From Bidens hawaiensis (Eukaryota > Streptophyta > Magnoliopsida > Asterales > Asteraceae): a DNA stretch of 64,000 bases. Position 1 is the first letter of the stretch, and each line of letters begins with the position of its first letter. The notes under the pieces are model-generated. The model was not told where the DNA came from. It saw nothing but the letters and a program-made list of their open reading frames with translations, and did not search any database. Shown in pieces: positions 20,416 through 43,877 of this stretch. The stretch is taken from positions 1 through 64,000 of the forward strand of contig JAIQDT010000226.1 of assembly GCA_021521415.1 (NCBI GenBank). The letters are read 5' to 3'. The position numbers and the translations under genes were made by a program.

Positions 20416-21616
20416 TGTCGGTCCCTTCGATTTCAGCTGGATCTTAATCAATCATGTCATAACTCACACGGATTAATCGTGTTGACAAGAGAGTTAATGA
20501 CGGGTTGCTATATTTAGAAAGATATCCGTTTGTTAAAGACAGAATCAATAACAAACATACGGTTGCAATGAATAATCAAAGATAGAAAGCACACTTAAGA
20601 TTCACTCAAAAGATTTCCATTTATATAATGTTAATCATACAAAAGGATAATCGATTTAGGGTTTTCTAGGAATCCTAAGACAACCGTCACAGAATATTCT
20701 CTCAATTAGTGTGTCGGTGTTATATCCGTATTGTGCTCTCTCTGGCGGCGTGCCCTAAATATTCTATTTATAGGCCTGCCAACCTAGGACAGCTGTCATT
20801 CCTTCTAGAAACCCTAAATACAATCATACATATTCAAAATAAACTATGTGTAAAACAAGTCTTCCGGGTAGGCTTTGCATCAATCTTGTCTCTCCTAGTA
20901 TGCTCGGCCATCCTTCATAACTTGGTAACATAGAAGTGTGCTCGGGATCAGTTTCCGGGTAGACTTTACTTAAAGAGTATTTTACCAAGTAAAATACTCA
21001 CCGAGTAGACTTCAGTCTTCTTGAATTTTCCAGACTTTGCCCGACAACTTCTTACGAGCAACCTTGTTCTTCAATGATCCATTTCAGCTCTTTGCTATAA
21101 AATAAATTATTTAGAAAAGTGTACTCGGGAGTACTGTTCCTTGCTCGAGCTGAACCTTACTCGATATTACTTAGAGATATTTCTTTAGATTATCAAGCAT
21201 ACTTGGATACTTATTAATGAATACCTTGCCCGGTCTTCCAATTTCTTGGCTTCTTGGACTAGGTTAACCAAACCTTACTCGGAAGAGTAAAATACTTGGT
21301 TCTGAAGAACAGACTTGCTTGATAAAGTGAACCTTACACAGATTTACACAAACTAGTGTACCTTACTCGGTAATGCACTAATTTGCAAACCCTTCTCGGA
21401 TATCCACTTAAGAAGGCTAAACGAAGTAAACCTTGCCCGGTAGGAAAAATACCGTACTCGGCCAAATAAAAGTTTGCTCGGAGGTCTAAGGTGTGCTCGG
21501 ATCCATTACTTAGCAAATTCAGAGGAGGTTGAGAAGATTCCAATCTCCCTTGTACTTCATTTAGGTCAAATCTTTGACTCAACAATCTTCCCTTAGGTCA
21601 ATTTCTTGACCCAACA
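20416..21616 (-). repeat. 3' LTR of element B
   Basis: 1,201 bp from TGTCGGTCCC to CCAACA. The TATAAATA box is at 20765-20772 (minus). ATCTCCCACTAG at 21617-21628 is the adjacent polypurine tract on the element strand. CCCGG/CTCGG motifs are dense throughout the right two thirds. Confidence 0.93.
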
Positions 21617-21817
21617 ATCTCCCACTAGATTGGAACACCTCAGCTTACCCAAAACATTTCTATGGTTACTTACACTTAGCAAAAATACACATCAAATCAA
21701 AAATCAAAATTACATATTCAAATAACATAAGCAAATTACATAATAAGAAAATTGTCCGAAGACATCACAAAACAAGGCCAAATCTTGAAATTTTTAATTT
21801 CAGCCAGATTTGCTTGT

Positions 21818-23354
21818 TTAATTTTCTTGCTCAACCAAGAACCTTAACAGTTCTGATTGCTTAGCACTTGTAGGCCTTTGCCTTTCTTTGTAATCAGAGA
21901 GATACAGTGTTGCAATCACCTTCAATTGACATAGATTGAATTTTCTGAAGTCATTTTTAGAGAAGATCTTCACAATCTCTCCATTTTCCATCATAACATT
22001 CAGATGTTCAGTCCTGGAGTCACAAAATATTCCGCTTGGCATAATATTATGGTTGACTGAAGGGTTTTTGGCTTTTACTGCAGTTTTGACAAAAGGTTTA
22101 TCCATCTTCAAGTGCATTTGCTTTGATTTTTCTTGCTTAGTTACAAACATCTTCCTTATCTTTGTATTGTTCTGTTTTGAGATCAAAGATGTTGTCTTTC
22201 TGCAGAATTCCTTTACTCTGGATTTTCCTTTAATTGTCATCTTTGATAGACTAGCCATCTTTTTGGATATTCCTTTGTTCATACCAACTAGAGTTTGAGC
22301 TGCTCCCTTCTTCATGTTCAGCTGTTGTCCTTTCATTTTCTTGAAGTTGCTCAAAATCTCTTTTCTTGTCATTATTTTTACTTAATCAAAGGGAATTCCA
22401 TTCTCAACTAAAAATCTTGATTTACCATCATATTCACTCAAGAACTTTTGAACTTCCATTTCTTGTTCCAAATCATCTTTCAATTTCAAATCTTTCACTT
22501 CATTGTCTTGAACAATCTTTTCTTCACTTAGTGTTTTTGAAATTTTATCAATAACAGTGTCTAGTTTCTCTTTCACATCTGTCTCTGGTTCTTCTTGTTT
22601 AATCAACTTGAGTAGAGATACTAGCACACCATTTGGAATTTCTTCATCATTTAAACAGTTTCCAATCAATTATTGTAGGACTTCTCTCTGATTATTCTTC
22701 ACTTCATCTCTTAGCTTTCTCTCATCTTCAAACATCTTCATCAAGTTTTCTTGTTCTTCAAAGTCTTTATCAGATATCATTTGAGAAAGAAATTCTCTGT
22801 CATAAATTTCTGTCATTCTTTGAACATAGACTCTTTTGGCTTCTGATTCAGATTCATTCATTTCTGAGTCCATTGTATTCTCCTTCTAAGAATTTAAAGA
22901 CTGAATTTCATCGTCCTCTTGAGCAATTTCTTTCCCTTTTAATTTCTTTCTTTCCTTAAGATCTTTCTTTTCATCTTCTGGAACATTGTCAGTTTCATCA
23001 TCTGAACTATTCTTTTCATAAATTGAGAGAAGCTTCAGCGAATTCTCCCCCTGTTTTGGTGATTTTATCGTCCTCTTGAGCAATTTCTTTCCCTTTTAAT
23101 TTCTTTCTTTCCTTAAGATCTTTCTTTTCATCTTCTGGAACATTGTCAGTTTCATCATCTGAACTATTCTTTTCATAAATTGAGAGAAGCTTTAGCGAAT
23201 TCTCATCCTGTTTTGTTGATTTCTCCCCCTGTTTTGGGGCAGCTGAGATCTTCTCAACCTCAGACATTAGGGCTTGAACTCGTTGCAATGCTTTCTTCAG
23301 TTCTTCAGAAAGATGATGTTTGTAGGAATTGGAATTACTAGGAGTTGGATCCAT
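21818..23354 (-). pseudogene. Element B accessory ORF (lacks N-terminal domain)
   Basis: Starts at ATG 23352-23354 (MDPTPSNSNSYK). The segment VEKISAAPKQGE corresponds to the middle of the A accessory ORF, so the plant-transposon-protein domain is absent. A 157-bp tandem duplication (22910 and 23067 are equivalent positions) shifts the frame. From 23083 the frame is constant to 21818 but has stops at 22886, 22670 and 22382. The C-terminal block FCDSRTEHLNVMMEN...VIATLYLSD is shared with A and C. The protein is acidic in the middle and lysine-rich towards the end. Function unknown. Confidence 0.7.
22910..23223. repeat. 157-bp tandem duplication in the B accessory ORF
   Basis: ATCGTCCTCTTGAGCAATTT starts at 22910 and again at 23067, and the following sequence is nearly identical through the AAGCTT(C/T)AGCGAATTCTC word. 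The unit is not a multiple of three, so it moves the reading frame by one. Confidence 0.9.
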
Positions 23355-23937
23355 TGCTGATTTTCTGTTATATCAATGAACACACAATTATCAGTTAGAT
23401 CTCAAAGTAAGTATAAAATAAATTAAGGTATAAATGATATTTCAATTCAAACCGTTGTCTTGAATGATGTAGAAATCTGCAAAAAACACAAATGTAAGTT
23501 ACTCTTGATGTGTGAAGTTTCAAATTTGAATCGCATATGCATGTCTTCTTTTAATGAAAGTTAAGACAAATGTAAAGTACATATCTGCAATTTTTTCTGC
23601 CAAAATTGCAGATAAAGTTCTTTTGTTTCTGCCTTTTTCTTTTACATGCCAGGTAAAGTGAGAAATTTGAAAAGTGTCTTGTATTTTAGCTTATAAATTC
23701 ATTATCTATTTAAAAGTATGTAAAGATAAGGTAAAGTGTCTTTCTTTGAGAGTAAGAATTTGTAGTGGGAGGAGAGAGAGGGAAATAATTTTGAAAAATT
23801 TGCCTAACTCCCTCTTTTATACCTTTTGAAATTGGGTTTTAAATGCTTTTTGTCCTTTTGTGAATTATTAGCTGTCAACCAGTAACATTATCCACTTGAT
23901 ATATTAAAAACATTTAATTTCATTTAAGTTCATAAGA
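23355..23937 (-). promoter_or_regulatory. Leader and internal promoter of the B accessory ORF
   Basis: The minus strand has TATAAAAGAGGG at 23812-23821 inside about 100 bp conserved with A (6480-6600) and D (51790-51930). The sequence between TATA and ATG differs from A after about 23720, consistent with replacement of the first domain and its leader. Confidence 0.55.
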
Positions 23938-25300
23938 TCTTACTTGAAAGATTAATCTATCCAAAGTCTACTCGGTTTACTTCCACATCAAACCTTACCC
24001 GGTCAAATTTTGCTTGAAAATTTTCATTTTTTAATATACAAAGTTTGCCCGAATTCGTCTATTAATAAACCTTGTTCGATCAAGTAAATTAATTTAAAGT
24101 TAAGACATGATGAAGAAAGCTTACCCGAAATACTAGATTTCTTGAGAAATTAATCACAAGGCAAATAATCAAGTATAATCATCAAATAAACATCCTTACT
24201 ATGAATCAATTAAGATCCCCACAGAGATTTCTCACTTTTAAATTAAAACTTATCTAGCATAAACCCTAATAAGAATCATAATCAATTTTATCATACTAAC
24301 TAACATATTCAAACAAGTAACACATTCATTCAAGTATGCTTGAAAACATAGTGTGCTCGAGCAATCTTTCTGGAGAATAGTGTGCCCGAACACCTTTCTA
24401 ATACAAAGTATACCCGAAAAGAATTCTAGCAGACAGTGTACTCGGAAAGTTAAGTTTTTGAAATTACCAAGTATATTGAGGGAACAAAAGTGTACCCGGA
24501 ATATAAAGTGTGCCCGGAAAACAAATTTTGCCTGAAAACACTTGTAATTTCAAAGAAATCATAAACACACATATCACAGAGCATGCTTGGAATGAAATTA
24601 AAACACATAGACATTTAGGTGTGCTATAGTCTAAAATTTCATAGATCTTGCCCGAAAATCCTATGTTAGCACTAATCTTATTAGGATAAACACATTCAAT
24701 CGTTAGGTATGCCCTTACCCAAGGGATTTCAACATGCCAAACCATACCCAAAAAATGACAAACTTAAATAGTAATATCTAAGCATGCCCGGAAAGATTAA
24801 CAAACCTTTCCTAATGACATATTCACAAAAATCACAAAGCTTACTTGATGTACTTGACTAAGTTCATAAAGTTCACTTGGAATCATAATCAGCATATAAC
24901 ATGCATAGCTTGCCCGAAACAAGAATTTCTTGTTAAAAGCTAGCTATAACAACACATAATCATCTCAAGACTTCAAGCTTGCTCGGGAAATGGGTACAAC
25001 AGTGTACTCTACCCGGAAAGTGTAAACACTTCAAAGCATGCCCGAAAATCATAAAGTTAGTCAAAAATGACTAAGCTTACTCGAAAATGTTGAAAATTAT
25101 CAAACCTTACCCGAAACAACATATTCACACATAATCAAGTCAAAAATGACTAAGCTTACTCGGAAAGGTTTTCAAACCTTACCCGAAACAACATATTCAC
25201 ACATGATCAAGTCAAAATGACTAAGCTTACTCGGAAAGGTTGAAAATTATCAAACCTTACCTGAAACAACATATTCAAACAGTTTACCCGAAACAACATA
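23938..25300 (-). repeat. CCCGA-motif cluster upstream of the B aORF promoter
   Basis: Same position and motif as the A cluster (6627-7955), e.g. CCTTACCCGAAAC, GTGTGCCCGGAAA, CTTACTCGGAAAG. B has a local triplication of GTCAAAA-TGACTAAGCTTACTCG near 25060-25240. No ORF. Confidence 0.85.
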
Positions 25301-25499
25301 TTCAACCTATTGTAGGCAAAATGCAACACTTTTTGACTTAAACCACTTTGTCAAAATATATTTTTCTTTTCAGATCATAGTTTAAGAGTAAATGGTGCAT
25401 TTAGAGATCAAATTTCAGTTATAATTCTCTTCAAAACAGTTTCTTCCATTTACTGAAAAGATCTCAAGAATGGGATCATATTGACTAAGTTGCTATCTC

Positions 25500-26530
25500 A
25501 ATACTTCACTCTCAGCATTATTATGACAACATAGATAGGTTAACAGCAGGTATAAACTTAGCATGAATTTCATCTCTTTGGTGATATGATTTAGGTTCAT
25601 TTAAAGCATAATGCATTAATGGTCAACACTGTGCTATGATGCCTCATATCTCTTCTCAAAGCTTATTTGGCTTTCCCCAGATCACCCCAATTTGACTCCA
25701 ACCTCCTGTATTTGGTCAAAAATAGTTTTTGTATGACATAACTTATTGTATTTTTGTATTTTTAGATTCAAACATATATAGAGGTTGAACGTTGGACTTA
25801 CAGTTAGCAAACATGCCTTTCATTCAAGATGAGACACATTTTGTCAACATCTTTGTAGTTCTTGTTATAACCCTCTTGTTTGATAAAATATTTAAAAACA
25901 CTTATCAACTTTTGGTTGAATTATTCATTCTTCTCCTTGTTTTTGATATTTTATCAAATTTTCTTAAAGCATTTTCTTTGTCATATTTAAAGATGTTTAA
26001 TTTTCGGTTGACCAAATAGCAACAGGCTCGTGTATGATTGGGTAATCACTTTTCTGCCATATCATTCGGAGAGATTTATCTTGAGACATGCAAAGACAAC
26101 TATGCATCTCCACATAAATATTAGCATATTCATTATGTTTATATCACCTTAGATTTTACATCATCATGGGAAAGCAACCATACATGTTAATGACTATACT
26201 AAGGTCTTTTTAGCCTATTAATTCCATGTGATCAGCTTAATATCATTTCCCATAAAACAAAGTTTAATATTCACTCACCCCAATATCTCTTCATTTTCAG
26301 GTTAATGGCTATCCTATTTGACCAAAAGTGGTCAACAAGACCAAACATACATGTGAATATATGTCCTTTCAAAGTCAGAGCTATTGACATAGTTTTAAGT
26401 GAAGGAATAAGAAACAAGTCATAATTGCCACAAATGCATTCAGTTTTCAGGTCAATGGCTATCCTTTGAATTTATAAAAATTTAAGGACCAAACATACAC
26501 AAGTGCATGTCCTTCCAACTGGGCAAATTA
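25500..26530 (-). other. Conserved non-coding region between pol and aORF (B)
   Basis: Collinear with A 8160-9180 and C 59430-60420. Stem-loop modules lie at 26275-26368 and 26425-26514. The GATTACCCAATCATACACGAGCC-type block is at 26021-26076 and the GGGGAAAGCC block at 25619-25700. In the distal module one stem base has changed so that the pair becomes G-U rather than being lost. Confidence 0.72.
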
Positions 26531-27045
26531 CATAGTTTTCAGCAAAAACAACTACTTGAGACTTCTATTTAAAAATCCTTCTTTTAAGCTTCTTAAAAGC
26601 TTGAACTGAATAATCTTATCATAACTCTACACCATTAATCAACTTGCTCATGTTTTGACCAAAATAAAGTATTTATGCAAATTCATTATAAAATTCATTG
26701 AATCACTTAATTTTGACATAAAACACATTTTGACATAAACAGTTGCATCACATAATCAAATCTTAATCATTCTTAACATCATCATGAAAAAACAGACTGT
26801 ACTAACATTCAATGTCTATCCTATCTTAACAACATCAGAAGATCAGATAAAGAACAACTTCAAGTAACCATAAACATGTGATTACTCATGACATCAGATA
26901 AGCATTCAATTTCACCCAAACAGATCAAACTACTTATCAAAACATTAGATCAGTTAACTTGATAGTCAATAATTATCATGAATTTCAAACAAATTGCACA
27001 GATAATTACTTAAGCACCTATCTGTTAACTTCATACCAATGACAT

Positions 27046-27470
27046 ACTCAAAACATATTCAATCAACATTCAGTTGAAACCTATTCAAAACATATTCAAT
27101 CAACATTCAGTTGAAACATATTCAAAACATATTCAATCAATATTCAGTTGAAACATATTCAAAACATATTCAATCAACATTCAGTTGAAACATATTCAAA
27201 ACATATTCAATCAACATTCAGTTGAAACATATTCAAAACATATTCAATCAACATTCAGTTGAAACATATTCAAAACATATTCAATCAACATTTAGTTGAA
27301 ACATATTCAAAACATATTCAATCAACATTCAGTTGAAACATATTCAAAACATATTCAATCAACATTCAGTTGAAACATAATCAAAACATATTCAATCAAT
27401 ATTCAGTTGAAACATATTAAAAACATATTCAATCAACATTCAGTTGAAATATATTCAAAACATATTCAAT
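27046..27470. repeat. 37-bp minisatellite downstream of RNase H (B)
   Basis: About 11 units of the ACATTCAGTTGAAACATATT / CAAAACATATTCAATCA type with a strict 37-bp period (TTCAGTTG at 27069, 27106 and so on). Units are more uniform than in A. Confidence 0.92.
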
Positions 27471-27536
27471 ATGTGTAATCTCTAATAAAATAATCAGTTA
27501 GCACACAGAGACACACAACCAGGCACACATCCTTAA

Positions 27537-29204
27537 TCAGATTTCATCAGAGTTGGTCATTCCCAGGGCTTTCAGAAGAAAGTTGAACCTGGTTCTATCA
27601 AGTGGTTTGGTGAATAGGTCAGCCAAATTGTCACTTGTATCAACCCTTTGCATTTTAATCAAACCTTTTTCACTGCAGTCTCTGATGAAATGATGTCTGA
27701 TTTCAATGTGCTTAGTTCTGGAATGTTGAACATGATTTTTAATAGTAAAATATGCAGCATTATTGTCAATAAGAATAGGGGTGTTCAAGAAATTCAAACC
27801 ATAGTCCAGCATCTGATTTTGAATCCATAGAACTTATGCACAGCAGGCAGATGCAGCAACATATTCAGCTTCTGCGGTAGAGATTGAAACTGTAGTCTGC
27901 TTTTTACATTGCCATGACACTAGACTTTCACCCAAAAATTGACATCCACCTGAGGTTGACTTTCTGCTCATGTTGCAGCCATCATAGTCACTGTCTGTAT
28001 ATGCAATCAGATCAAAAGCTTGGTTCTTTGGATACCAAATCTCTAAGTCTGGTCTTCCCTTCAAATATCTGAATATTCTTTTAACAGCATTCATGTGGGA
28101 GACTTTTGGACTTGCTTGGAATCTTGCACACACACAAACAACAAACATGATATCTGGTCTTGTTGCAGTCAAATACATCAGAGACCCAATTTTGGCTCTA
28201 TATTCATGTTCATCCATAGGCTCCCCCTTTTCATCTGCAATCATCTTTTCTTTAGTGTCCATTGGAGTTGAAGCAGTCTTGTACTCATGACAGTTGAACT
28301 TGTTCAAGATGTCCTGCACATTTTTGCTTTGATGAATGAAAATCCCCTCAGCTTTCTGTTGAACTTGCAATCCTAGAAAGAAGTTCATTTCTCCCATAGA
28401 ACTCATGTTGTATTTGGATTTCATTACCCCTTCAAACTCCATACACATTTGTTCATTTGTAGAACCATAGATGATGTCATCCACATACACTTGTAGTAGA
28501 AGCAAGTCTGATCCCTTTCTTTTGTAGAAGAGTGTCTTGTCAATGGCTCCTCTTTTGAAACCATTTTCAAGAAGATGATTTGACAGCTCATCATACCATG
28601 CTCTAGGAGCCTGATGCAATCCAAAAAGGGCTTTGTTTAACTTATACACCCTGTTTGGATACATTGGATCCTCAAAACCTAGAGGTTGAGCAACAGACAC
28701 TTCTTCATCAATCTTTCCATTTAGAAATGCAGACTTAACATCAAGCTGGAACACTTTAATGTTCTTTGAGGCAGCATATGCAAGAAAAATCCTGATAGCT
28801 TCAAGTCTTGCAACTGGTGCAAAAACTTCCTCAAAGGCTATTCCTTCTTCTTGAAGACATCCCAATGCTACAAGTCTAGCATTATTCTTAATCACTAAAC
28901 CCCTTTCATCCTTTTTGTTTCTGAACACCCATTTGGTTCCAATTGCATATCTGTCAAATGGCTTATCAACAAGATCCCACACATGCAGATCTCTAAATTG
29001 TGCCAATTCCTCTTGCATTGCTTCCACCCAACTATTATCTTTTAATGCTTGTGCTACGTTCTTTGGTTCTATTTGGGATAGAAAACAAGAGTAAAGACAA
29101 ATGTTTGCAATTTCAGAATGACTTCTTGTAACTCTTTCATGCAAATCACCAATGGTGTTTTCAGATGGATGATTCTTTTCCACATAAGGCGTTTGAACAA
29201 TCAT
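27537..29204 (-). pseudogene. pol: Element B reverse transcriptase-RNase H
   Basis: RT carries [20 protein letters not shown] and [10 protein letters not shown]. RNase H carries [23 protein letters not shown] and [15 protein letters not shown] and ends at TGA 27537-27539 after SDEI. One stop (CAA to TAA, about 27834-27836) splits RNase H just after SACCA; the remainder continues in 27537-27812. The segment [19 protein letters not shown] that is inverted in A is in normal orientation here. Confidence 0.88.
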
Positions 29205-31031
29205 ATCTGTAGAAATAGTAGTGTCAAGATTTGACTCATTGAGTTCTGGTTCTTCAATGATAAAATCAGTCTCTGCATCATGAAATTATGGTGCTTCGTC
29301 ATTATGTTGAGTTGAAGTAGATGCACCATTATTTTCTAAGTTCAATCTTTGAAATAGATCTTAAAATCTTGCTGTAGATGCAACTTCTTCTCCACTTGCT
29401 TGGTTGCTTGTGTCACCCTCATTCTGAACTTGATCATCCTGTTCATCGTGATTGTCTTGATTGTTCTCAGTATGATCATGTTCAACATTGTGATTGTTTT
29501 CTTGATTAGGTTCACCAATATCACATGAGGAGTTCTTCACAAAAGTATATTCCTTTTCCTTTTCAGCAACCTTCTTCCATAATTCTTCCAAGTCCAATGA
29601 CTTCTTCTTTTTCTCTTCAATTTCACTAGTCTTGTAGAAAGATTCATCAAAGTCTTCAGGATAAATCTTAAAAGACGTTATTAACTTCTCAAGATCAAAC
29701 AGCCATGCTGCACCATCAACTGTATAGAATTGATTCTCATTAAAAATGATGTCAGAAGATTCTATAACACTCAAGTGATCTTTTACATAGACTCTGTAGG
29801 CTTTTGAATGTGTAGAATATCCAACAAAGAAACAATCCAGGGACTTTGTTTGAAACTTTTTCAAATAGTCTCTAGTGTTTAGTAGAAAACATTTGCAACC
29901 AAAGGGCTTGAAAAACTTAATGTAAGGCTTTCTGTTGTGAAATATTTCATATGGAGTTTTGTTAAGCCTTTTGTTGACAAGTACCCTGTTCTGAACATAG
30001 CAGGCTGTATTTATAGCTTCAGCCCAAAAAGTGACAGGCAGATTAGCATCTGCTAACATGGTTCTTGCAGCTTCAATAAGTGTTTTGTTTCTTCTTTCTG
30101 CTACACCATTTTGTTCAGGAGTTCTAGGAGCTGAGAATTGTTGTTGTATTCCTTTTCCTTCACAGAATTTTTGCATAACTCCATTCTTGAACTCAGTGCC
30201 ATTGTCAATTCTGATCATCTTGACTGTCTTATTCAACTTATTCTCAATCATTGTTACACAACCTTTAATCAACTCTGTAGTCTCATCCTTGGTACTTAGG
30301 AAATAAACCCAAGTGTATCTTGAATAGTCATCAATGATCACCAGACAATATCTTTTCTTCCCAATACTTGGTACACTCACTGGACCAAAGAGATCCATGT
30401 GAAGTAATTCAAGTATTTGATCAATTGAGTTGATGAGTTTTGACTTATGAGTAGATTTGTGTTGTTTTCCCTTTTGACATGAATCACAATGATCTTCCAA
30501 CTTGAAGTCTCTTGTAGGTAAGCCGATGACATGGTCACCTTTGACAAGTCTATTCATGTTCTTCAAGTTCACATGACACAGTTTCCTATGCCACAATTTT
30601 GACTCATTTTCAGTGGCTTTGGAAATAAAACATGCACATCCTCTTGAAATAGCTTCTTTCATATTCAATTCATACAAGTTACCATTTCTAGGTGCCATCA
30701 TCATAATCATTTCAGGTGGAATTACAAACTCAGGTTTTAAAATGAAACAGTGTGAATCATCAAAACTGACTTTGTAACCCTTATCACATATTTGTGATAT
30801 ACTCAGCAGATTGTACTGAAGACCTTCAACTTGAAATACATTATCAAATGAGACTTTCCCATTTGTTAAGATTCCTTTTCCTACAATCTTTCCACCATTC
30901 TCATCTCTCCCAAAAGCTACTGGACCTTCATACTTCTCTTCATAATTAGCAAGAGATCTCTTGTCACAAGTCATGTGCCTAACACAACCACTATCCATAT
31001 ACCATATGTCATTTAGAGGAGTGGACTGTTC
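29205..31031 (-). pseudogene. pol: Element B protease-integrase (second exon of gag-pol)
   Basis: The first residues after the candidate acceptor are EQSTPLNDIWYMDSG, with protease motif DSGCVRHM. Integrase has LWHRKLCHVN...CDSCQKGKQH, MDLFGPV, the second Asp in RIDNGTEF (the usual Ser is Ile) and the Glu in NGVAERRNKTLIE. Two nonsense changes lie in the linker before RT, at 29361-29363 (CAA to TAA) and near 29287 (GAA to TAA). Frame arithmetic shows that this frame joins gag only if 31032-32982 is removed. Confidence 0.87.
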
Positions 31032-32982
31032 CTGCACATACAAAAAAAATTTGATTAGTTAAGTGATGAAGTGCAAGCCTTATCAACTTGCAGTTCATCA
31101 GATTCAGTTTCAGACACAGCTTGGGAAGTGAGTGTTGTCGGTTTAGGATCTTCATGAGCCAATTCTAAGTTGTCTGAATGATCAGTTTTATAACCACACT
31201 CTCTTGGAGTTTTGACAAGTGAGGTTGGGTAATGGTATTCACCTGAGTCAGTGGCATACTCCTTTAACACATAGTCCTTTTTCTCAGAGTAGTCTCTCAC
31301 ATCAGCAACTTGCTCAACCTTACTCTCAGTCTTAGGTTTCCAAAGGAAACCATGTGGTTCATATCCATGTATTAATAGAAACTTCTCATCACCAGTGAGT
31401 TCTGTTGGTTTATTTCTTGTATGTGTATCTTTTCTTCTTGTCTTCTCACTGCTTGACGATCCTTGAGAGCTATCAGATTTGACTGATTGAGTATCTTGCT
31501 TGATTCTCACAGACTGATAGTTCTTATTGGTCAATTTCTCATGCTTCTTAGTAGATTTACTTCTTCTTGCTAGTTCAGCCACTTTCTTTTCAATCCTTGT
31601 CTCCTTTTCTGATTTCTTCTTCTCTTTGTTCATGGTTTCATTTCCACACACCTTTCCTTTTCCTAGATATTCATCATACTTCTGTTTGTACAGGACAAAG
31701 TCTTGGCCATACTTTGTTCCATCTGGTACATGAAATGGTTTGAATTTGGATCTTTCATTACATGAATCTGTGTGGTGACCATATTCATCACACCTTTTGC
31801 ACCAAACCTTGCCTTTGAATATTTCATTTTCTTTTGGTTTTTTGTATCTTTCACTTGGCTTAGTTGTCTTGACTCCTAGAGTCTTCTGATTCTTTAAACC
31901 ATCAAAATCAATTGAAAAAGGAACAAATTCCTCAATCTTGATGTCTTGTCTTTCAAGTTTGCTTTTGACAAAGACAATCTTCTCCATAATCATAGATTCT
32001 TCATTACTGCTTTCTCTAACCCTTGACTGTCTTTTCTCATACTCTTCCATAGTTTCCACTTCTCCAACATCCAACACCTCAGACTAGAAAAGATTGGATA
32101 AACTGGGATAAAATTTTCTGTATCAACCTTTTCAGTCACCATCTTCTTTTTGTTGTTCTGCTTTATCTTACCCAATACAGCCTTGCTTGGTGGTCTGACT
32201 GCATTGTAGTTTATCTTCCTCCTTTCACAAATATCAAAAGAAACATGTTATCTTTTCATTTTATCATTCTGTTTCTTCAATCTTGGTGGGACTGGTGGAT
32301 ACTTTGGAAGTTTATCAACAGATTCAGGTTTCTTATATTTTCTTCCTCTTTCAGCAGCTTTGATTTCCTTTTCAGTAATTTGATCACTCAAATCATCTTG
32401 ATCCAACTCAACTGAATCAAAGTCATCCTTAGAGACTTGAACTCCAATTGACTTATTCTCTTTTACTTCTTTCTTACTCACAAACTCTCCTTCTTCATTC
32501 ACTTCTACCTTTTTGTACAAATCAACAAATTCTTCCTTGTCTTGAAAGACATCTCTGAATTGTTGCAAGTATGCATCTCTTTTCTCTTTGTCAACTTTTG
32601 GCATGAAATTGTTGTTGAATGGAGGTGGTACTGTTTTGTCTTTGTCTTGTTCTTTCACCTGATTCAGTATACCACATATGTTGCCTGTTGAGACCAAATT
32701 CTTCAGAAATTCAGTTTCAACCTTCAGTCTTGTGTTTTGCACCTTTTCTTCAACCAACATCTTCTTTAATCCATCAATCTCAGTGGTGTATCTGGTTTAA
32801 GTTCTGTAAATGATCATGCAATCATCTTCAAGGCTTTTAATCTTTTCATCCCTGATCATCTCACTTGCCTCATACTCATTGATGATACTTTGTTTTCTAA
32901 AACACTCACTTTCCAGCTTGCCTACTTTTGTTTTCAATTCAATGATAAGTTCATTTAAATCAACTGTAGGAGCAGAGTGTAC
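31032..32982 (-). other. Candidate 1,951-nt phase-0 intron between gag and protease (B)
   Basis: On the minus strand the donor is TCTCAG|GTACAC (GT at 32982-32981). The acceptor is a run of eight T, then GTATGTGCAG|GAACAG (AG at 31033-31032), preceded by an ACTAAT branch-like word. Element A lacks precisely this interval and joins TCTCAG directly to GAACAA. The intron length is 3n+1, and the gag and protease frames differ by exactly that, so splicing restores one frame. The intron body encodes the Gag extension described separately. Confidence 0.75.
31055..32982 (-). pseudogene. Gag extension encoded inside the candidate intron (B)
   Basis: Reading on from gag without splicing gives a coiled-coil-like segment (LNELIIELKTKVGKLESEC), then charged sequence (32248-32760) and, after a frameshift near 32085, a second zinc knuckle WCKRCDEYGHHTDSC (CX2CX4HX4C) in a basic region (31055-32077). 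It ends with TAA at 31055-31057, 22 nt before the acceptor; that TAA overlaps the ACTAAT branch-like word. A stop at 32797 and one at 32248 are decay. Element C has the equivalent coding (54869-56044). The product would be an alternative, longer Gag without Pol. Confidence 0.65.
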
Positions 32983-34606
32983 CTGAGATGATGATCCCTT
33001 TTCTTTCTCAATTATGGCCATGAATGTCACATTTGCTTTCCTGATATCATCTGCAATGTCCTCTTCATAATTGCTCCAATCAAAATTTCCTTCATGTTGT
33101 GTAGTCACTGCCACATTTCCTTGATTTCTGATCTGATTTTGATTTGCTGGAACAGTGTTGTTTGGAACATTTTGAGCTGCTTGAAGGTTTTGACTGCTAT
33201 TCATTTGAAAACCTTGAGTATGTTGCATACTTTGTTGTTGATTATTCATTTGAGGCTGAAAGTTGTTGAAGTTTTGGTTGTAATTGTTGTTGTTATTGAA
33301 GTTGTTCATTTGATTGCTGTTGTTGTTGAATCTTGGCTGATTTTGTTGGTAATGCTGCTGACCTCTTGGTTGATTTTGTTGATATTGATGATGACTTCCT
33401 GGTTGTTGATTCTGGAATTGATTCATTTGAAAGTTTCTTGGTTGATTGCATTCTCTTGCAAAATGACCAGGTTGCTGACAATTGTAGCATATTGCTTTTG
33501 ACTTGTCAAATCCAATCCTATCATTAGGACCAGAAACCAGAGACCTACCAGTTCTGTTATACAGCCTTTTACTTCTCAGACCCAACATGGCAGCTTGCCA
33601 CTTCAAATCCATGTCTTCCAAGTCATATGCATCAATTTGTTCTAAATCATCTTGTACCACACTTGTGTGAATTATATTCTTTGCAACAAATGCATTATAT
33701 GACTCAGTAAACATAGACAACAAAGATTGTGTTTCATTGCTTTGACCAAGTCATGTGCCAGTATTAGGAACATTTCCACTTGGCTTGGAGGCAGAATCAG
33801 TATCATCAATTAGTTGCACATTGAACCTCTGCTGATTTCCTTGATTACTTGTGCTACCTCCAATGAAAGATTTTGGAGTAACAACATTATGTTCAGCTGG
33901 TAGACAGATTTCCCATGGGTGCAATCAATGCATTTGAAACATTGAAGCATGGTCTATCTTCCTTAATCATCTCATTCTCGATCATTTCAAGTTCTGCAGC
34001 CTGAAGAAAGCATACCACATCATCCAATTTCAATTCAATGAAATTTTGCTTCTGAATGATGAATTTGCAAGCAGTATACCATTCTTTTGGCATTGAGTTG
34101 AGTAACTTTGTATTCAAATCAAAGTCAGTCATTACATAATCAGTTGTCCTCAACTCATTCACAATACTTAGAAAACGTTCTAGTATTGATTTCAACCTTT
34201 CTCCATCCCTATACTTGAACCTTTCTAACTGTTGCTTCAATCTTTGCTTCTTTATGTTCTTTAGTTCAGTATTCCCTTCATACATTTCAAGGATGGCATC
34301 ATACATTTGCTTGGTTGTTGTGTGATGAGCCACCTTGGTTAGAATCTCCCAAGACAAACCTAGCTTAATCATAGCTAAGGCTTTGTCATCCACCTTTCTC
34401 ATTTTTTCTCTTACAGCAGCAGTTGCAGTAGCATTTGCACCTTCTTCAACAGTAGTTTGTGGACCATTCTTGATGGAGTTCCACATATCAATATCATTGT
34501 AGCATACAGCTGCTTCAAAGAGTACCTTCCATTTAATAAAGTTTTCCTATCCATACAACCTTGGTATCTTGTTAGTAGACACCTCTTGTTCCTCATATCC
34601 AGACAT
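32983..34606 (-). pseudogene. gag: Element B gag core (first exon)
   Basis: ATG at 34604-34606 (MSGYEEQEVSTNK). Broken by CAG to TAG near 34549, by a deletion of about 34 bp at 33899 relative to A, and by a TGA near 33754. The knuckle CYNCQQPGHFAREC and the Gln/Asn-rich tail (repeated QNQ, NNN) are intact in 32797-33723. The last exon codons are SSSQ before the donor site at 32982. Leader and PBS follow to the right. Confidence 0.85.
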
Positions 34607-34897
34607 TTTTAGAAATTTAAAAAAAAATCAGTTTCTTTAAAAAAAGTTTCAAAATAATCAGATCTGAAAACAGAATGCTCAGATCTGTTGTGTCTGAAGT
34701 GATTAGAACAAGATTTAGATATAAATATTAGAACTTTAATTGAAATAAGGAAGAGAAAACACCGGTAGATTGTAGATCTGGAAGAAAATTGAAAAACAGG
34801 GCTGCTGACGTCACAAATCAATCGAACAGTGTCTGCTTACGTCATTCTTCTTCAAATCTTCAATCAGCAACAATCTTTCTAAAATAGCAGTAACACA

Positions 34898-34909
34898 GCT
34901 CTGATACCA
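34898..34909 (-). promoter_or_regulatory. Primer binding site of element B
   Basis: TGGTATCAGAGC on the minus strand, two bases inside the 5' LTR end at 34912. Confidence 0.93.
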
Positions 34910-34911
34910 CT

Positions 34912-35290
34912 TGTCGGTCCCTTCTATTTCAGCTGGATCTTAATCAATAATGTCATAACTCACACGGATTAATCGTGTTGACAAGAGAGTTAATGACGAG
35001 TTGCTATATTTAGAAAGATATCCGTTTGTTAAAGGTGGAATCAATAACAAACATACGGTTGCAATGAATAATCAAAGATAGAAAGCACACTTAAGATTCA
35101 CTAAAAAGATTTCCATTTATATAATGTTAATCATACAAATGGATAATCGATTTAGGGTTTTCTAGGAATCCTAAGACAGCCGTCACATAATATTCTCTCA
35201 ATTAATGTGTCGGTCTCATCCGTATTGTGCTCTCTCTGGCGGCGTGCCCAAAATATTCTATTTATAGGCCTGCCAACCTAGGACAGCTGT
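34912..35290 (-). repeat. 5' LTR of element B, inner part (R-U5 and core promoter)
   Basis: 379 bp from TGTCGGTCCC to GGACAGCTGT; the TATAAATA box is at 35259-35266. The next bases of the LTR are 15 kb away at 50260, because a gypsy element entered about 25 bp upstream of the TATA box on the element strand. Confidence 0.93.
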
Positions 35291-38200
35291 TGTAACGATT
35301 CCGACGAAACCAGGCATGCCCTAACCGGTAGACAATAGTTACGTTATATTTAATGTCGGTTACATTAATTACCATAGTAATTATACGAGAATACATGGTT
35401 CACTGTATCAATTGTACGTGAATATACAATTCATCGTATTGATTATGCGATTAATCGATCGATAGTTATTGAAACCCGAACGAATCGAGGGTTCAATTAT
35501 AGACGATATCTATAATATTTAGTGATTTTACGAAGCATTAATGCTTCAGGATAAGTAAAGTACGGCACAGAAAAATAATTTCGATTTAATGGTACGTCGG
35601 TGCGTTAAACGAAACCTTTAATACCAAACTGAGCAAGAGATGATCGATCAAGCCGAAAAAGATGCGCAATTATTAATAATATGATGTTTTTAAGTTAATG
35701 AAAGTCATGGTTTAAGTTTTTAAAGTTTTTAAAGTGGTTTTATATAAATTTCATTTTTAAGCCGAAAACGACCATTTTAGCCTCGTTTTAAGCCGAATTA
35801 AACATTTAACCGAAAAACGAACTGAACCAGATTATCCAAAACATTATCCGGATTCTCAATATCCAAATATGTTGCTAGAAATGGAGAGGTGGGTCCCACC
35901 CCACCCCGCTTTGAATTCCGATCGGAATAAGGGTTTTACACCCATTTCCTTTGTTATTTTTTTTAGCAATCATTCCCATGTATCTTCAATTCTCTCCACA
36001 ATATCATCTAAAAACCGAGATTTTAGCAAGAAAATCGAGGTAAAAAGTCGAGTTATTTACATTTCCATCTTCGTTTCTTGAGTTTATTTGCAAGAAAATG
36101 AGGTTTCAAAGATGAAAACCGATTCTTGCATGATCAAGTGATGTATACGGGTTATACAAGGGATCTTGGTCCAATAAAGGAGTTAAACGAACCAAAAACG
36201 AATTTTTACGGTTTAAACTTTAGTTTTGAAACAATAACCGAAACTAGAGTGTAAGAGGCTTGATCGTGAGTGTAACTTGCTTGGTATTGTGGTATGTTGG
36301 TTGTAGGTTCTGTATTTAGTGGTAGATAAGGCGGAAATACGAGTTTGTAGCTTGTAGTGGCGGAAAACTAAAGGTATATTCGGTTTATGTTCGGTATTGG
36401 ATTTTTTGACAGATTGTGGTAGGTTTAGAGTTAATTCATGAAATTTTACAGGGATGATCTACACATGAAAATACGTGTTCTGTGAATTTTTTGTAATTTT
36501 TGGGCAAAAGATGAATATTTGGTGAATTTAATGCTCGGTTTTGGCTAAAAATGGTGAAAATTAGTTAAATATCATGAACAATTCTGGAAAATTGTATATA
36601 AGCTTTTCATATCATTTAAAAGTTACACACAAAATTTTAGGTCAGTTGGAGAAGTCTAAGTAGGCTTTTCGGTTAAACGAGTTCTAGGGTTTTCTAGCTC
36701 GGTTTTAGTGAAAATAGCATGTAAAAGAGATTTTGGTTCTGGAAAAATTACAGGGGACTATGTGGATGGCAGGGGTCATCCAGGAAAAATTTGGGATTTT
36801 TCTAAGGTCGTTTGGTATTTACGACACATTTAGTGTTTAAATGGTGTTTAAAAATAGATAAATAAATTTTAAATATAAAAATTAATTCTGGAAATATTTT
36901 TATAAAATTCCCCACTGTCAAAAAGTGATTTGTGCAAAATTTCAAGATTCGAGATTAAACGGATAATTATTTGTGCAAAAACAAACTTTTAAGGTTTAAA
37001 AAGCGTAAACCGGTAAACTTCGCCTAAACGAGCCGACCGGTGTATAAAAACCCTAAAAATGAACTATTTTCATATAACTGAGTTAAACAAGTAAAAATAA
37101 ATCATTCAAAAATAATTCGGATGATTTGAGTAATTTTATCCGATAAAACAGTTTCCGGTGCACTAAAGACGGAAACGGGTCCCGCGGCCAAACGGGGCGT
37201 CTAAACCGAGCTCTAATTTCACAAATTTAATTAAATAATCAGTCAACAACTATTTTTGGGTCGTGTGTGACCAAACTGATTTTTGAAATGTAAAAACGGA
37301 TAACCGTGTTAGGCACGCAAAACGGGAAAAACGACTAATAGTAATTTTGACTAGTGAACTCTAAACGATATCACAATCTGAGTCCGGAGAAGTGTTTCTG
37401 GGTTAACATTGCCCCCGGAATGGGTACAGTACTGGGTTAACAGTGTCCCCAGATGTCCCTAGAAGTGTTTCTGGGTTAACATTGCCCCCGGAACGGGTAC
37501 AGTACTGGGTTAACAGTGTCCCCAGATGTACCGGTTAACACGGTTAAAGTTATATTAATAGTGATTGTATAGTAACGATCGTAGGGATCATATTACAGAT
37601 TGGACGTGTTAACTGATAATGACTGTTGTTACCTGCTTGCATGTGCTAAGGTGAGTTTCACGAGCCCCTTTTTCTGAATTGTTTTTAAATATTTTCCCGG
37701 GGCGGAAGCATGTTACTACTGAAATGTTTAAGTACATACTGAACGCATGGACTTGCGTGTATTTATATATATTTTATTGTACGGGAATCATACGGAAATG
37801 TACTAAGATGGTAATTGTCTGAGTTGCTAACATTCTAAGGCCCCGGAACACGAGTGATTAACTGAAAGCCGGTAGAGTGTGGATAGTACTATTAGTCTGA
37901 CAAACCCAACTGGTCCGGCATGGATTTGCTGATGTTTCCCAGCCAGTTGCACATGTTTATTTTGTTGTTATATATATTTTGCTATGTAATGTTAGACATA
38001 GCAGTTTGGGGCAGGTCCGTGGGAGGAGTATGCCACGGGGGTTGTGTGTGGATAGTCAGAGGTTTCACTTGTGGGCTCAGCATAATTACATCGATAATAT
38101 TATATTTTGATATGGATTTATCATGGTTTACTCAAATTGTGAAACTCACCAACTATTCGTAGTTGACCCGTTTTCTCACATGCTTTTCAGGTACAATTAA

Positions 38201-38454
38201 GATGAAGTGATTGCTTACGTGCTAAGTGCTTGATGTGTGTAAGATTTGCGTGCGGGATGTTAGGATACATTATAATAAATAGAATTATGTAACATATTGT
38301 ATGATGTGTGTATCACCTAGACGGTAATGAAATATGAGATAATGTAATTTGAAGTATATTAATGTATTCAGTTTTCTTTATAAACAATGTGGTTGATATC
38401 AGAGGTGTCTGTTGCATCCCGTTTACGTTTCCGCAGCGGTTACGGGGTGTTACA
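35291..38454 (+). repeat. 5' LTR of the gypsy element
   Basis: 3,164 bp. Contains two tandem 73-bp units starting at 37388 and 37461 (AGAAGTGTTTCTGGGTTAAC). Very similar to the 3' LTR: about 15 differences noticed by eye in the first 700 bp. The open frames at 35869 and 37920 recur in both LTRs and show no protein family. Confidence 0.93.
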
Positions 38455-38459
38455 GAAGT

Positions 38460-38473
38460 TAGTATCAGAGCCA
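38460..38473 (+). promoter_or_regulatory. Primer binding site of the gypsy element
   Basis: TAGTATCAGAGCCA, one base different from the initiator-Met PBS, five bases after the LTR. Confidence 0.8.
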
Positions 38474-40189
38474 TTGGTTATAAAGATTTAGGATGTCTTT
38501 AAAAGATACCTAAAATATAACCAGTAGCTCAAGTATTATAGGATCTGAATATCAACTAATAATTTATAGTGACGAGATCTGGATGAACTTGGATGGACAA
38601 GTGAGTTATTATGGTCCGGAACATAATAACAGACTTGTCCGCACGAGGGAATTCAGGGGAAGTCACGGGGAACGTTAATAGGTAAAAATGGCAACATATA
38701 TGTAAAGTATATAATATTATTTATGCGTGCCAATGTGTATACATATATATGTGTACATATCTTGTGGGTACATGTATTGAGAAATAGGACCCGGATAAGG
38801 AACCGGGGGATGAAATAATAAAAGTACCGAGGATGCTGAAATTTCTAGATCATCGGTTGATGATAAGTCTGACTTATCGGGCCATAGTTATGATAGTACC
38901 AAGTTAGATCTCCCGTTTGACATTAACCAGAAATATCTAGTAACCGTCACTCCCAACCAAAATTAATAAATCCCTTACCATACCAATACCGGTACCGTAT
39001 ATCTTAATAACCCCCTATGTTCACCCGAACCGCCGACCCTCACGTACGGACGGACCTGTACATGAACCCATTCTTATCCCATTAAGGTAAATAAATAAAT
39101 AAATAAAATAAATAATAATAATAAATTTGATAATAAATGAGCAGATAAAAATAATATATAGAAATATATATGTGTATTTCTCACTCTCAAACATATGAGA
39201 CATACCACCTCCAGGTCGAGAATTACCGATTTTAGCGAACCTAGAACGTCGGAGGACATTGACTGAGCAAGCGATAGAGTTTCCCATAATAGTAATTGAT
39301 AATATTTTAAGGCAACATGGGTTGCGCGATTACCTTGAACCTTGCAACTCCCTATGTTAACCTTACATCCGTTAGAGGCCTATACCCATGTATACTCGAA
39401 TAGAATGATTACCCATACACAAAGAGGTGTTGGAATCATTATAGCATAGTTGGTTGTCCGTTTGTAGGTGGTATACCGTGTATGCCGGATATACAAATAG
39501 ACACGGATATTATAACTCCGTGGTACGTAATCGTTTGGTGCTCACGGTGAGCATGTATCGGTTATGCTGACATGCAGAAGGATATTGAAATCAAGCATAT
39601 TAAACATTAATCTTTCTTGAGAAAGATCTATATGTCAGTTGGTGACAAGGGTTATGAAACATATTTAAACGTTAACCGATGTCAGGTTAAGTCCCTATGT
39701 TATTATATTTGTGGGACATATATACTAGATACTGGTATGTGTAATATGTATGATAATATTTGGTGTGTATGTGTACCTGCTGTTATGATTGAGCTGGTAA
39801 CGAGTTATACGGTGAGATTAGTATTGATTACAGCGTACGGGATGGGTACGGCAGAATGACATAAAGAGAGTAACTCCAATGATGGAGATTGATATGATTA
39901 AGTTGATTGCTCAAAGATAGCAGATGATGATACCGAATGTCGTATCACAGATCACTGCTAGGGTTGATGCAAATGTGATCGCAGAATTATAGATCGAGCA
40001 ATCACATGATTATGAATATTTCAATTCTTATTGTTATTACTAAGAGTGATAATGTCCCACCGAATACTATTATGACTACAAGTATTAGTTATAAACTAAA
40101 CATGAATAGTAGTCGTAATGAATTAGATCCGGTATGAAGGATATGTTTGTTCGTTGTGTTAAGGAAATTATTAATAGTTTACTGATGGT
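38474..40189 (+). other. Gypsy leader and 5' gag region, decayed
   Basis: No surviving frame. An AAATAAATAAAT-type simple repeat is at about 39088-39128. The short frames here have no family similarity. It corresponds in position to the leader and the start of gag. Confidence 0.45.
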
Positions 40190-40650
40190 AAAGGGAGGAA
40201 TAGATTAGCGAGGGGATAGAAAAGATCGAAATGGTTAAGGATATTGGTAAGAGTCTAGAACATTGTGTAGTGAAATATGCTACAGATATGTTGGTAGATT
40301 ATGTTGTATCGTGATGGAACACAATGGTACAAAATTATAGTTAGAAAATTATTACTCTGATGATATGGTCAGAATTTAAAATTCTTGTGCTAGAGCACTT
40401 TTATTCGAATAATTAAGTTCAGAGGCTGGAAACTGAGCTATGGAAGATAGAAATGTTGTGTGCTGATCACTTAGAACGCGCTAATCGTTTAAAGGAATTT
40501 TCATGTCTGTTAACATGGCTAATTACTCCTGAAACTAAGCGAAGTGAGCGCTATATTGGGGACTAACTCCATCGATAAGGAGTATAGTCAATCCTGTAAA
40601 ATATACAACCTTTGTAAGGGTTGTGTCACAAGCCAGCATTGATATATTTA
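40190..40650 (+). pseudogene. gag: Gypsy gag remnant
   Basis: Broken frames give VKYATDML, a W in the place of the usual WW, FKILVLEHFYS and RLETELWKIEML...DHLERANRLKEF, in the order of the plant gypsy retrotransposon gag domain. Multiple stops and frameshifts. It ends about 100 bp before the inserted solo LTR. Confidence 0.6.
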
Positions 40651-40757
40651 ACGCTATGGGAAGCGGACTGGAAGGACGTTAGGTGAGACGTCGAGTGTTA
40701 AAGAAGAGAAATGATAAACGGATAGTGCAAGATAGGCTTTTGAATAAGTAGGTATGC

Positions 40758-43700
40758 TGTAACGATTCCGGCAAATTCAGGTATACCCTAGCCGGAATAT
40801 ACTATTTACGTGTTATTTAATACTGAATATACAAATTATAATGTGTTTATACGAGTATATAAGATTCACAGTACGAATTATACTCAAATGTACAACTAGT
40901 CGTATCGGAATTACGATTAACCGATGAACGGTTATTGAAACTCGAACGAATCGGGGATTACATTATAGACGAAATATATAGTGTTTAGTGATGTTTACGA
41001 AGTATTAAAGCTTCGGGATAAGTGAATTATAGCACAGAAAAAGGATTTCGATTTATTAGTACGTCGGTACGATAAACGAAACCTTTAACATCAAACCAAG
41101 CAAGAGACGATCGATCAAGCCGAAAAAGATGCACAATTACCGACAATATGATGTGTTAAGTCAATAAATGTCATGGTTTAAGTTTTTTAAAGTTTTTAAA
41201 TCGGTTTTATATAAATTTAAATTTTAAGCCGAAAAACGACCGTTTTGGCCTCGTTTTGAGCGGAATTAAACGTTTAACTGAAAAACGAATTGAACCAGAT
41301 TATCCACAACATTATCCAGATTGCGTAATCTGAATGTGTGGCCAAGAATGAAGGTGTGGGCCCCACCCCACACCCTTTAATGGACCAATCGGCCAAGGGG
41401 TTACAACCCTTGGCTTTCTTTTTCTTTTTTCACAAACAACAAACTCTTGATCATCATCCTCTCTTCAACAATCATCCAAAGATCCAAGTTTTTAAGCAAG
41501 AAAACGAGGTATAGACCGAGTTATAATCGTGTTATTCTTCTTTTCTTGATTCATTTACAAGGAAATGAGGTTTCAAATGAAAAATGGGTGAAAACCTGAG
41601 ATGAAACCGATTCTTGGAGGATCAAGTGATGTATACAAGTTATACAAAGGATCTTGGTCCGAGAAAGTAGTTAAAAGAGTCAAAAACGAATTTTTACGGT
41701 CAAAATCTTTGTTTTGATGCTTTAATCGAAACCATGAAAGAAATGGCTTGATTGTGGGTATAACTTTCTTGGTGTGGTGTTGTTGTGCTTGTAAGTGTTG
41801 TATCTAGTGGCTAGCAAAGGCTAGAAACCAAGATCTTTGCGATCTAACGCTAGAAAACACAAAGTAGTTCGGTTTTCGTATGATTTAGTTATTTTGGACA
41901 GATTGTGATAGACCTAGAGTTGGGTCACGAAATTTCACAGAGATGATCTACACATGAAAATATGAGATCTGTGAATTTTTGGTAATTTTTGGATAATGGA
42001 TGAATATTTGGTGAATTTAATGCTCGGTTTTGGCCAAAAATGGTGAAAAATAGCTAAACACATGAAAAATTCTGGAAAATTTAAGATAATCTTTTTATAA
42101 CATTTAAAAGTCACACACAAAATTTCAGGTTCATTGGAGAAGTCTAAGTAGGCTTTTCGGTAAAACGAGTTCTAGGGATTTCTAGCTCGGTTTTGGTAAA
42201 AATGGCATGAAAAATAAGTTTTTGGTTCTGGAAAAATTACAGGGAACTATGTCGGTGACAGGGGTCATCCCAGAAAAATTTGGGATTTTTCGAAGGTCGT
42301 TTGGTATTTTCGTCATATTTGGTGTTTAAATGACGTTTAAAAATGGTTAAATAAATTTAGATATAAAAATTAATTCTGGAAAAATTTTATAAAATTCCTT
42401 ACTGTCAAAATATGGTTTGTACAAAATTTCAAGGTCCGAGACTAAACGGATATTTATTTGTGCTAAATGGAACTTAAAAACAAACTTTTAAAGTTTAAAA
42501 CGAGTAAACCGGCGAAGTTCGCCTAAGCGAGCTGAATGGTGTTTGAATACCTTAAAAATGGATGATTTTTATGAAACTAAGTTAATTAAGTAAAAATAAA
42601 TCATCCGAAAATAATTCGGATGATTTGGGTAATTTTACCCGATTTAACCGTTTCCGGTGTATTAAAGACGGAAACGGGCCCCGCGGCCAAACGGGGTGTC
42701 TAACCGAGCTCTAATTTCACCACTTTAATGAAAATATCAATAATAACTATTTTCGGGTCGTGTGTGGTCAAACTTATTTTTGTAAACATAAAGACGGATA
42801 ACCGTGCTAGGCACGCAAAACGAGAAAACAAACTAACGGTAGTTTTGACTAAAGAACTCTAGGTGATATCACAATCTAAGTCCTGAAAAGTATTTCGGGG
42901 TTAACATTGTCCCCGGATCGTGTACGGTACTGGGTTAGCAGTGTCCCCAGACGTACCGGTTAACACGAATTTAAGTTATATTGATAGAAATTGTGTAGTA
43001 ACGATTTGGGGATCGCATTACAGATCTGTACCAGTAGCCGTGCACCGTAGTACATCTTGCTCACAAGAAGGTGAGTTTTCACGAGCCCCTTTTACTGAAC
43101 TGTTTTAAATATTTTCCCGGGGCGGAAAGCATGTTTATCAAAGTGTTTAAGTACATGCTGATCGCGTGGAAATGAATGTATTTATATAATGTTTATTGTA
43201 CGGGAATCGTACGGTAAAGAATTAAGATGGTAATTGTCTGAGTTGCTAACAGTGTAAGGCCCGAAACAGTGTTCTGGGGTAACCGAGTTCCCAGAGGTTA
43301 TTAAATGTGTTCTGGGGTAACCGAGTTTCCAGAGGTTATTAAATGTGTTTCTGGGGTAACAGAGTTCCCAGAGGTTATTAAATGTGTTTCTAGGGTAATA
43401 GAGTTCCCAGAGGTTATTGGAACTATTCTGGGGTAACAGAGTTCCCAGAGGTTAATCGATATGTTTTGGGGTTAATAGAGTTTTCACTTGTGAACTCAGT
43501 ATAATTACATCACTTATTTGTGATTTTTATAATGATTTGTCATGGTTTATTTAAATTAGTGAAACTCACCAACTATTCGTAGTTGACCCGTTTTCTTTAC
43601 ATGCTTTCTAGGTACACTCAAATTGGAATGAGTGATATGTGTTCGATGCTGTGTGCTATTTTGTGGAAGTCTAGAGATCTATATTTTGCATTAAATATGT

Positions 43701-43872
43701 TAATGTACTATCGGTAACACTTATGTTATAACGCTTAGATGGTTATGAAACTCAGAACAATGTAATACGTTTAAATTAATGTAGTGGTGTTTTCTTTATA
43801 AACAATGCTGTTGATATCAGATGTGTCTGTTGCATCCCGTGTACGTTTCCGCTGCGGTTACGGGGTGTTACA
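40758..43872 (+). repeat. Solo LTR of a related gypsy subfamily
   Basis: 3,115 bp with TGTAACGATTCCGG...GGTGTTACA ends, clearly related to but well diverged from the flanking LTRs. The flanks TATGC (40753-40757) and TATGT (43873-43877) form a 5-bp duplication with one mismatch. No internal domain or PBS follows, so it is a solo LTR, as left by unequal recombination between two LTRs. Confidence 0.88.
43272..43490. repeat. 38/39-bp tandem repeat in the solo LTR
   Basis: TTCTGGGGTAAC words start at 43272, 43310, 43349, 43388, 43426 and 43464, each followed by GAGTTCCCAGAGGTTATT. The flanking LTRs have one related GGGTTAACAGTGTCCCCAG unit pair instead, so the array expanded in this subfamily. 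Confidence 0.85.
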
Positions 43873-43877
43873 TATGT

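Follow-up and report, generated by a model that had tools for sequence, protein, structure and literature searches.

The window, a stretch of 64,000 nucleotides of Bidens hawaiensis DNA, contains two related copies of a Ty1/copia retrotransposon, here called A and B, both on the minus strand. They differ by a segment of 1,951 nt, which in element B lies between gag and protease and which copy A does not have. The following features were assigned:

20416..51079, minus strand: element B, a Sirevirus-like Ty1/copia insertion with the target-site duplication CATAA on both sides and LTR pairs identical at 365/379 and 798/828 positions
20416..21616, minus strand: 3' LTR of B (LTR pairing)
34912..35290, minus strand: inner part of the 5' LTR of B (LTR pairing)
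50252..51079, minus strand: outer part of the 5' LTR of B (LTR pairing)
32983..34606, minus strand: gag exon 1 of B with Retrotran_gag_2 and the first CCHC knuckle (Pfam, E 8.1e-22 and 1.3e-7)
31032..32982, minus strand: candidate coding intron of 1,951 nt, GT...AG, absent from copy A, with a homologous ORF in the Bidens proteins P0001, P0053 and P0045 and in the protein P0028
32981..32982, minus strand: donor GT (CAG/GTACAC), exon 1 ending at 32983
31059..31061, minus strand: TAA of the pol frame, immediately preceding the stop of Gag, so that the open frames of Gag and pol overlap by only about 4 nt
31054..31058, minus strand: branch-like CTAAT, overlapping the Gag-frame TAA at 31057-31055, its fourth base 23 nt from the intron end
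31032..31033, minus strand: acceptor AG with T8 at 31049-31042, exon 2 starting at 31031
29361..31031, minus strand: exon 2 of B with protease (Pol_BBD), pre-integrase and integrase (Pfam)
27834..29285, minus strand: reverse transcriptase part of B pol (RVT_2, E 4.5e-71)
21821..23372, minus strand: pieces of a 3' ORF (eORF) of B in the interval between pol and the 3' LTR, two of them with relatives in Bidens P0045
15979..17652, minus strand: gag exon 1 of copy A, ending in TCTCAG and containing three nonsense codons
14516..15978, minus strand: protease-integrase of copy A, in frame with gag and intronless (GAACAA...), from the comparison of A with B
2158..2167, minus strand: terminal polypurine tract of copy A, AGGGGGAG, followed by AT/TG (motif match)

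The LTRs of element B are 1.2 kb long and its Pfam domains follow the order Retrotran_gag_2, Pol_BBD, gag_pre-integrs, rve and RVT_2, which is the copia order with the integrase before the reverse transcriptase. Nested in its 5' LTR is a large LTR element (about 35291-50255) with LTRs of 3.2 kb that are 97.7% identical; inside this element, a related stretch at 40755-43872 is 77-82% identical to the same LTRs.

Several features make the element Sirevirus-like. The polypurine tract and the primer binding site at the LTR junctions have been described as Sirevirus markers (cited passages of PMC2829016). Here, the tract AGGGGGAG stands directly before AT/TG, exactly in A and with one substitution in the octamer in B, where AT/TG is kept, and the primer binding site TATCAGAGC is found at the 5' LTR junction of both copies. 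Gag is large as well and has a CCHC knuckle followed by a putative coiled coil, the coil by structure prediction of the relative P0001 only. A forward-oriented ORF in the interval from pol to the 3' LTR, which according to the cited passages 74% of SIRE elements have, is represented by the pieces at 21821-23372, two with relatives in P0045. No cluster of polypurine octamers was found near the 3' LTR: the linker of B contains two exact octamers (23230 and 23052) and the linker of A also two (5233 and the terminal one), and within 600 nt upstream of the 3' LTR neither copy has a non-terminal octamer, even with one mismatch allowed. Furthermore, the 3' LTR of B, the sole LTR tested for palindromic CGG-CCG boxes, has no CGG-N0-6-CCG; for Tnd-1, an accepted Sirevirus member, boxes without the signature have been described in the cited passages.

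Element B is a decayed copy, unable to make a long Gag itself. Its exon 1 is broken by a nonsense codon near 34547 and a frame change near 33893-33924, and nonsense codons in pol are located near 29361, 29286 and 27834. The interior of the 1,951-nt segment contains stops at 32799-32797 and 32250-32248, and near 32090-32083 its reading passes out of frame 0 into frame 2.

On the minus strand, the segment is bordered by the donor TCTCAG/GTACAC and the acceptor TTTTTTTTGTATGTGCAG/GAACAG, and its removal joins the two sides in phase 0. These borders, the length and the join had been claimed in an earlier note on this DNA and were found as described, and the same is true for the TAA at 31057-31055, which precedes the acceptor and overlaps the branch-like site. 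The note had further read an unspliced Gag running to this TAA, which in B itself is prevented by the two stops and the frame change inside the segment. Its frame arithmetic (3n+1) is right insofar as the join in B is in frame. Since the unspliced frame of B is broken, little can be inferred from this length on intact members.

GT...AG borders, a branch site and a pyrimidine tract, the features asked of a spliceosomal intron, are all present in the sequence of B. Among the 17 CAG/G sites on the sense strand of 27541-34911, the acceptor is the sole one whose 22 upstream nucleotides contain a T run longer than five (T8), and a CTRAY-like branch site accompanies it. Three [CA]AG/GTA sites occur in the same interval, among them the donor, GTACAC being only a moderate match to the donor signal. 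The pyrimidine share before the acceptor is 0.59, which another CAG/G site equals, and the segment has no clear excess of U over its flanks (T 24% vs. 21% and 29%). Because no other CAG/G site matches the T run of the acceptor, few sites resemble the donor and the segment is exactly absent from copy A, the signals and borders are, as judged from the sequence, beyond chance.

Copy A is the intronless sister of B. Identity between the two amounts to 93-96% over the gag-to-integrase part and to 91-94% over the reverse transcriptase blocks, and copy A is without exactly the 1,951 nt, with the junction TCTCAG/GAACAA. This junction reads ...GGATCATCATCTCAG/GAACAATCCACTCC..., and its flanks are identical to those of B at 76/78 positions on the Gag side and 79/82 on the protease side. 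Gag and protease-integrase of copy A share one frame, which is open across the junction from 16116 to 14516; upstream of this open stretch, the Gag of A contains the three nonsense codons. The dN/dS values between A and B are 0.34, 0.16 and 0.27 for three pieces of gag and protease-integrase, as expected for lines under selection until insertion. A value of 0.80 for a reverse transcriptase piece was discarded, since this piece had been cut at guessed coordinates. Directly after the integrase domains, the pol of A is interrupted at 12260-14515 by an LTR-flanked insertion (repeats of ~536 nt, 93% identical, TGTTGG...ACA).

From this junction we infer that copy A derives from a spliced RNA that was reverse-transcribed. 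A chance deletion in the DNA between two CAGG words, whose match to splice signals would be a coincidence, might also have produced it. CAGG is indeed common to both ends of the segment, a microhomology of 4 nt, and of the 11 gaps of at least 15 nt between A and B in three compared blocks two can be placed as GT...AG, namely the segment and a 27-nt gap, i.e., one of the ten others. Due to this 27-nt gap, GT...AG alone is weak evidence. The weight rests on the coincidence of splice signals, frame and the junction in Bidens proteins: the ends of the segment fall on one of three donors and on the acceptor whose T run is the longest, the junction puts Gag and protease in one frame, and it recurs at the same residue in Bidens proteins from another subfamily. 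A chance deletion is therefore regarded as highly improbable. If the splice is real, the existence of copy A means that the spliced RNA can be reverse-transcribed and inserted.

The protein searches yielded 53 proteins, including six close relatives; one search scored no more than the 7,993 candidates with the highest number of shared words, and the other 47 proteins reach at most 51% identity to the query of one search. A pattern scan of IMG/VR with P0001 gave five matches without relatives among them and was set aside. Two Bidens hawaiensis proteins, P0002 and P0003, are fused and read ...FMAIDSASSSK/EQATPLNDIWYMDSGC (SSSK/EQATPLND). P0045 from the same species is unspliced and reads ...FMAIDSASSSK/VHSDPNAD, and P0001, likewise unspliced and from B. 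hawaiensis, reads ...TASSSK/VHSAPNVD. The Bidens protein P0053 and the protein P0028 are unspliced too, so that the unspliced forms show SSSK, SSQ or SSSQ before VH. The fused proteins P0002 and P0003 diverge from the unspliced P0045, P0001, P0053 and P0028 at one residue position. P0002 and P0003 may come either from intronless DNA or from gene models that bear the intron, and the splice fits both.

Phylogenetically, the two forms do not sort apart. A tree of exon-1 Gag was built with seven rows (A, B, P0002, P0003, P0045 with 35% filled, P0028 and P0053); P0001 was left out, as exon 1 is represented in it by 13 residues only. Here, A and B form a pair (96/94), and P0002, P0003 and P0045 a group (89/90). 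Three changes between the fused and the unspliced state are needed on this tree, and two are forced by the starred branches alone. The identical junction residue occurs in two subfamilies, A/B and the Bidens proteins. In a protease-integrase tree of 24 rows, A and B fall into a single clade with Bidens P0002 (99/97). The claim of the earlier note that splicing creates the Gag-protease fusion is supported by copy A, in which the DNA is fused, and by the identical junction in fused and unspliced Bidens proteins.

A further observation concerns P0045, in which the Gag extension runs straight into a 3' ORF of the B type, with 53/69 and 25/40 identical residues to the window at 22673-22885 and 23019-23372. 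This protein may stem from a copy with a deletion, or from a second splice between Gag and the 3' ORF.

The content of the segment is a C-terminal extension of Gag, comprising a putative coil, a PPPFNNNFMP stretch and a second knuckle. B and P0001 are identical at 154/234 and 137/185 residues in two parts of the segment and at 53/74 residues across the donor. The last open stretch of the segment in B has 342 codons, whereas none of 500 simple shuffles exceeded 131. These figures argue that the segment is coding and that the unspliced ORF is conserved. The longer Gag that had been read into B is supported by relatives, in that the ORF is open across the donor in P0053, P0028, P0045 and P0001; among the proteins and the DNA examined, no intact member was found whose unspliced Gag ends at the predicted stop. 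Gag and protease sharing a single frame throughout the segment in intact copies, the case named as refuting in the earlier note, was not encountered in this material, which held no readable intact DNA copy with the segment. The second zinc knuckle proposed at the same time is present as CKRCDEYGHHTDSC, with a weak Pfam match to CLIP1_ZNF (E 0.012) below the cut-off. As for the proposed coiled coil, AlphaFold predicts a helix pair in residues 22-111 of P0001, just past the donor, with block-mean pLDDT values of 54-81; the rest of this model is unreliable (overall mean pLDDT 44), and the coil is predicted from the structure of P0001 solely.

Sireviruses have been described with a large Gag in which a coiled coil lies downstream of a CCHC knuckle (cited passages of PMC2829016), so that the intron would match the Sirevirus-specific part of Gag. 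This bears on the question of which form is older. If the short fused form were ancestral, B would have gained the segment by insertion. Helianthus P0009, with a spacer of 152 residues from the first knuckle to the protease and no extension, would fit such an order of events, and P0007 looks similar. Against it speaks that the large Gag with a coil past the CCHC knuckle is a described trait of Sireviruses, and that in Tanacetum P0010 and P0011 the protease is preceded, in one frame, by a PPPYxxNFMP-like stretch and a knuckle; here, the profile comparison with the extension is weak (E 3.6e-4, probability 37%, two sequences). Taken together, we consider an ancestral short form quite improbable. 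A profile comparison of the extension using 25 sequences gave no match. Of the 41 proteins in which a protease motif could be recognised, seven have a PPxxxxxFMPP-like stretch, each of them from Tanacetum. Homology of the segment to the middle of Gag in other families was not adopted, as the order of parts is suggestive and the scores are weak (best hmmsearch E 0.014).

The reading that we prefer, with a probability of about 0.77 on the sequences compared, is that the segment is a coding spliceosomal intron, so that unspliced RNA would give a long Gag and spliced RNA a short Gag-Pol, with the spliced RNA reverse-transcribed at least once. On the unspliced RNA, the ribosome would read Gag with its capsid and first zinc knuckle past the donor into the Sirevirus-type extension, continue through the coil and the second knuckle and stop shortly before the acceptor. 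In the spliced RNA, extension and stop would be removed, and a shorter Gag would be fused in frame to protease, integrase and reverse transcriptase. Partial splicing would then replace ribosomal frameshifting or readthrough in setting the ratio of Gag to Gag-Pol. The spliced RNA would have been packaged, copied and inserted at least once, as copy A, and perhaps in Bidens too. Splicing in living tissue, the use of both isoforms and their roles would follow from this reading.

Frameshifting at the T8 run was considered and rejected, since the run lies past the Gag stop and the open frames overlap by about 4 nt. With stops at 31057-31055 (Gag) and 31061-31059 (pol), boundary frameshifting in B has almost no room at all. 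Nevertheless, the splice could be real and incidental, a by-product RNA that is sometimes reverse-transcribed, whereas intact members would obtain pol from the unspliced RNA through recoding, be it bypass, frameshift or internal initiation. Unexplained gag/pol frames have been recorded in Sireviruses, for which bypass or internal entry has been proposed (cited passages of PMC2829016 and PMC5009743). In B, however, stops close both frames at the boundary, the local RNA fold is no better than that of shuffles (z -0.16; equalled or surpassed by 81 of 200), and it is exactly at this boundary that the acceptor with the element's longest T run is located. An incidental splice is therefore judged unlikely, and the coding intron as the source of both Gag and Gag-Pol remains the preferred reading.

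The principle of a polyprotein built by splicing is already known. In the plant Ty3/gypsy elements Ogre, an intron between coding parts is spliced from a subset of transcripts, by which the whole polyprotein becomes translatable (PMC6317226). In contrast to B, Ogre belongs to another superfamily, and the cited passages do not mention an alternative Gag C-terminus in its intron. Within Ty1/copia, alternative splicing balances Gag and Pol in EVD/EVADE, BARE and Drosophila copia (PMC12786077, PMC8892269, PMC3735527), where the situation is the reverse of that in B: according to the cited passages, Gag alone is encoded by the spliced RNA, and Gag-Pol by the unspliced one. Cer1 of Caenorhabditis elegans and the sunflower elements Tyran and Varan likewise have spliced isoforms that alter the proteins made (PMC7730604; PMC10309623). 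Unlike in B, these are described there as encoding CERV, or truncated GAG or RT-RH pieces, and no Gag-Pol fusion. With Sireviruses, B shares the large Gag with CCHC knuckle and coiled coil as well as the polypurine tract and primer binding site junctions, and many Sireviruses have pol out of frame (cited passages of PMC2829016). For these, bypass or internal entry with a conserved stem at the boundary has been proposed, whereas in B the intron would remove the boundary; furthermore, pol of the decayed B is in the -1 frame relative to the end of Gag, in Sireviruses in the +1 frame. No Ty1/copia intron hiding an alternative Gag end was found among the matches listed in the open-licence PMC literature. 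The novelty suspected in the earlier note is thus narrowed: as far as the cited passages go, splicing that assembles a polyprotein has its precedent in Ogre, and the Ty1/copia version with an alternative Gag end is apparently new.

Sireviruses are an abundant group of plant retrotransposons, and the expression of their pol, when out of frame with gag, has been called a puzzle (cited passages of PMC5009743 and PMC2829016). The family of A and B offers a concrete and testable answer, namely splicing, with the Gag extension as the intron. Moreover, the BARE paper states that replication-competent retrotransposons must avoid the retrotransposition of spliced RNA (cited passages of PMC3735527), and copy A seemingly is retrotransposed spliced RNA of the element. 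Due to this apparent event, the balance between RNA for translation and RNA for the genome might be readable from genomic copies. A much bolder proposal, which is tentative and for which the odds are rather unfavourable, would be that splicing is the general Sirevirus route to Gag-Pol. The unexplained gag/pol boundaries would then be acceptors of introns in which the extension lies hidden, and short-Gag, single-frame copies or lineages living off their long-Gag relatives would arise whenever spliced RNA is reverse-transcribed, which would have happened repeatedly.

Repeats were additionally observed in both copies. The linker of copy A contains an inverted repeat (3364-3794 and 4178-4607) of ~430 nt, 98% complementary and 383 nt apart, which has no match of at least 150 nt to element B among the matches listed. 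In the 3' ORF region of B, a 157-nt unit is present twice at 22905-23223 with 96% matches. Arrays of a 37-nt unit occur in the linkers of both A and B, at 9708-10221 (13.9 copies, 94% matches) and 27042-27470 (11.6 copies, 96%), respectively.
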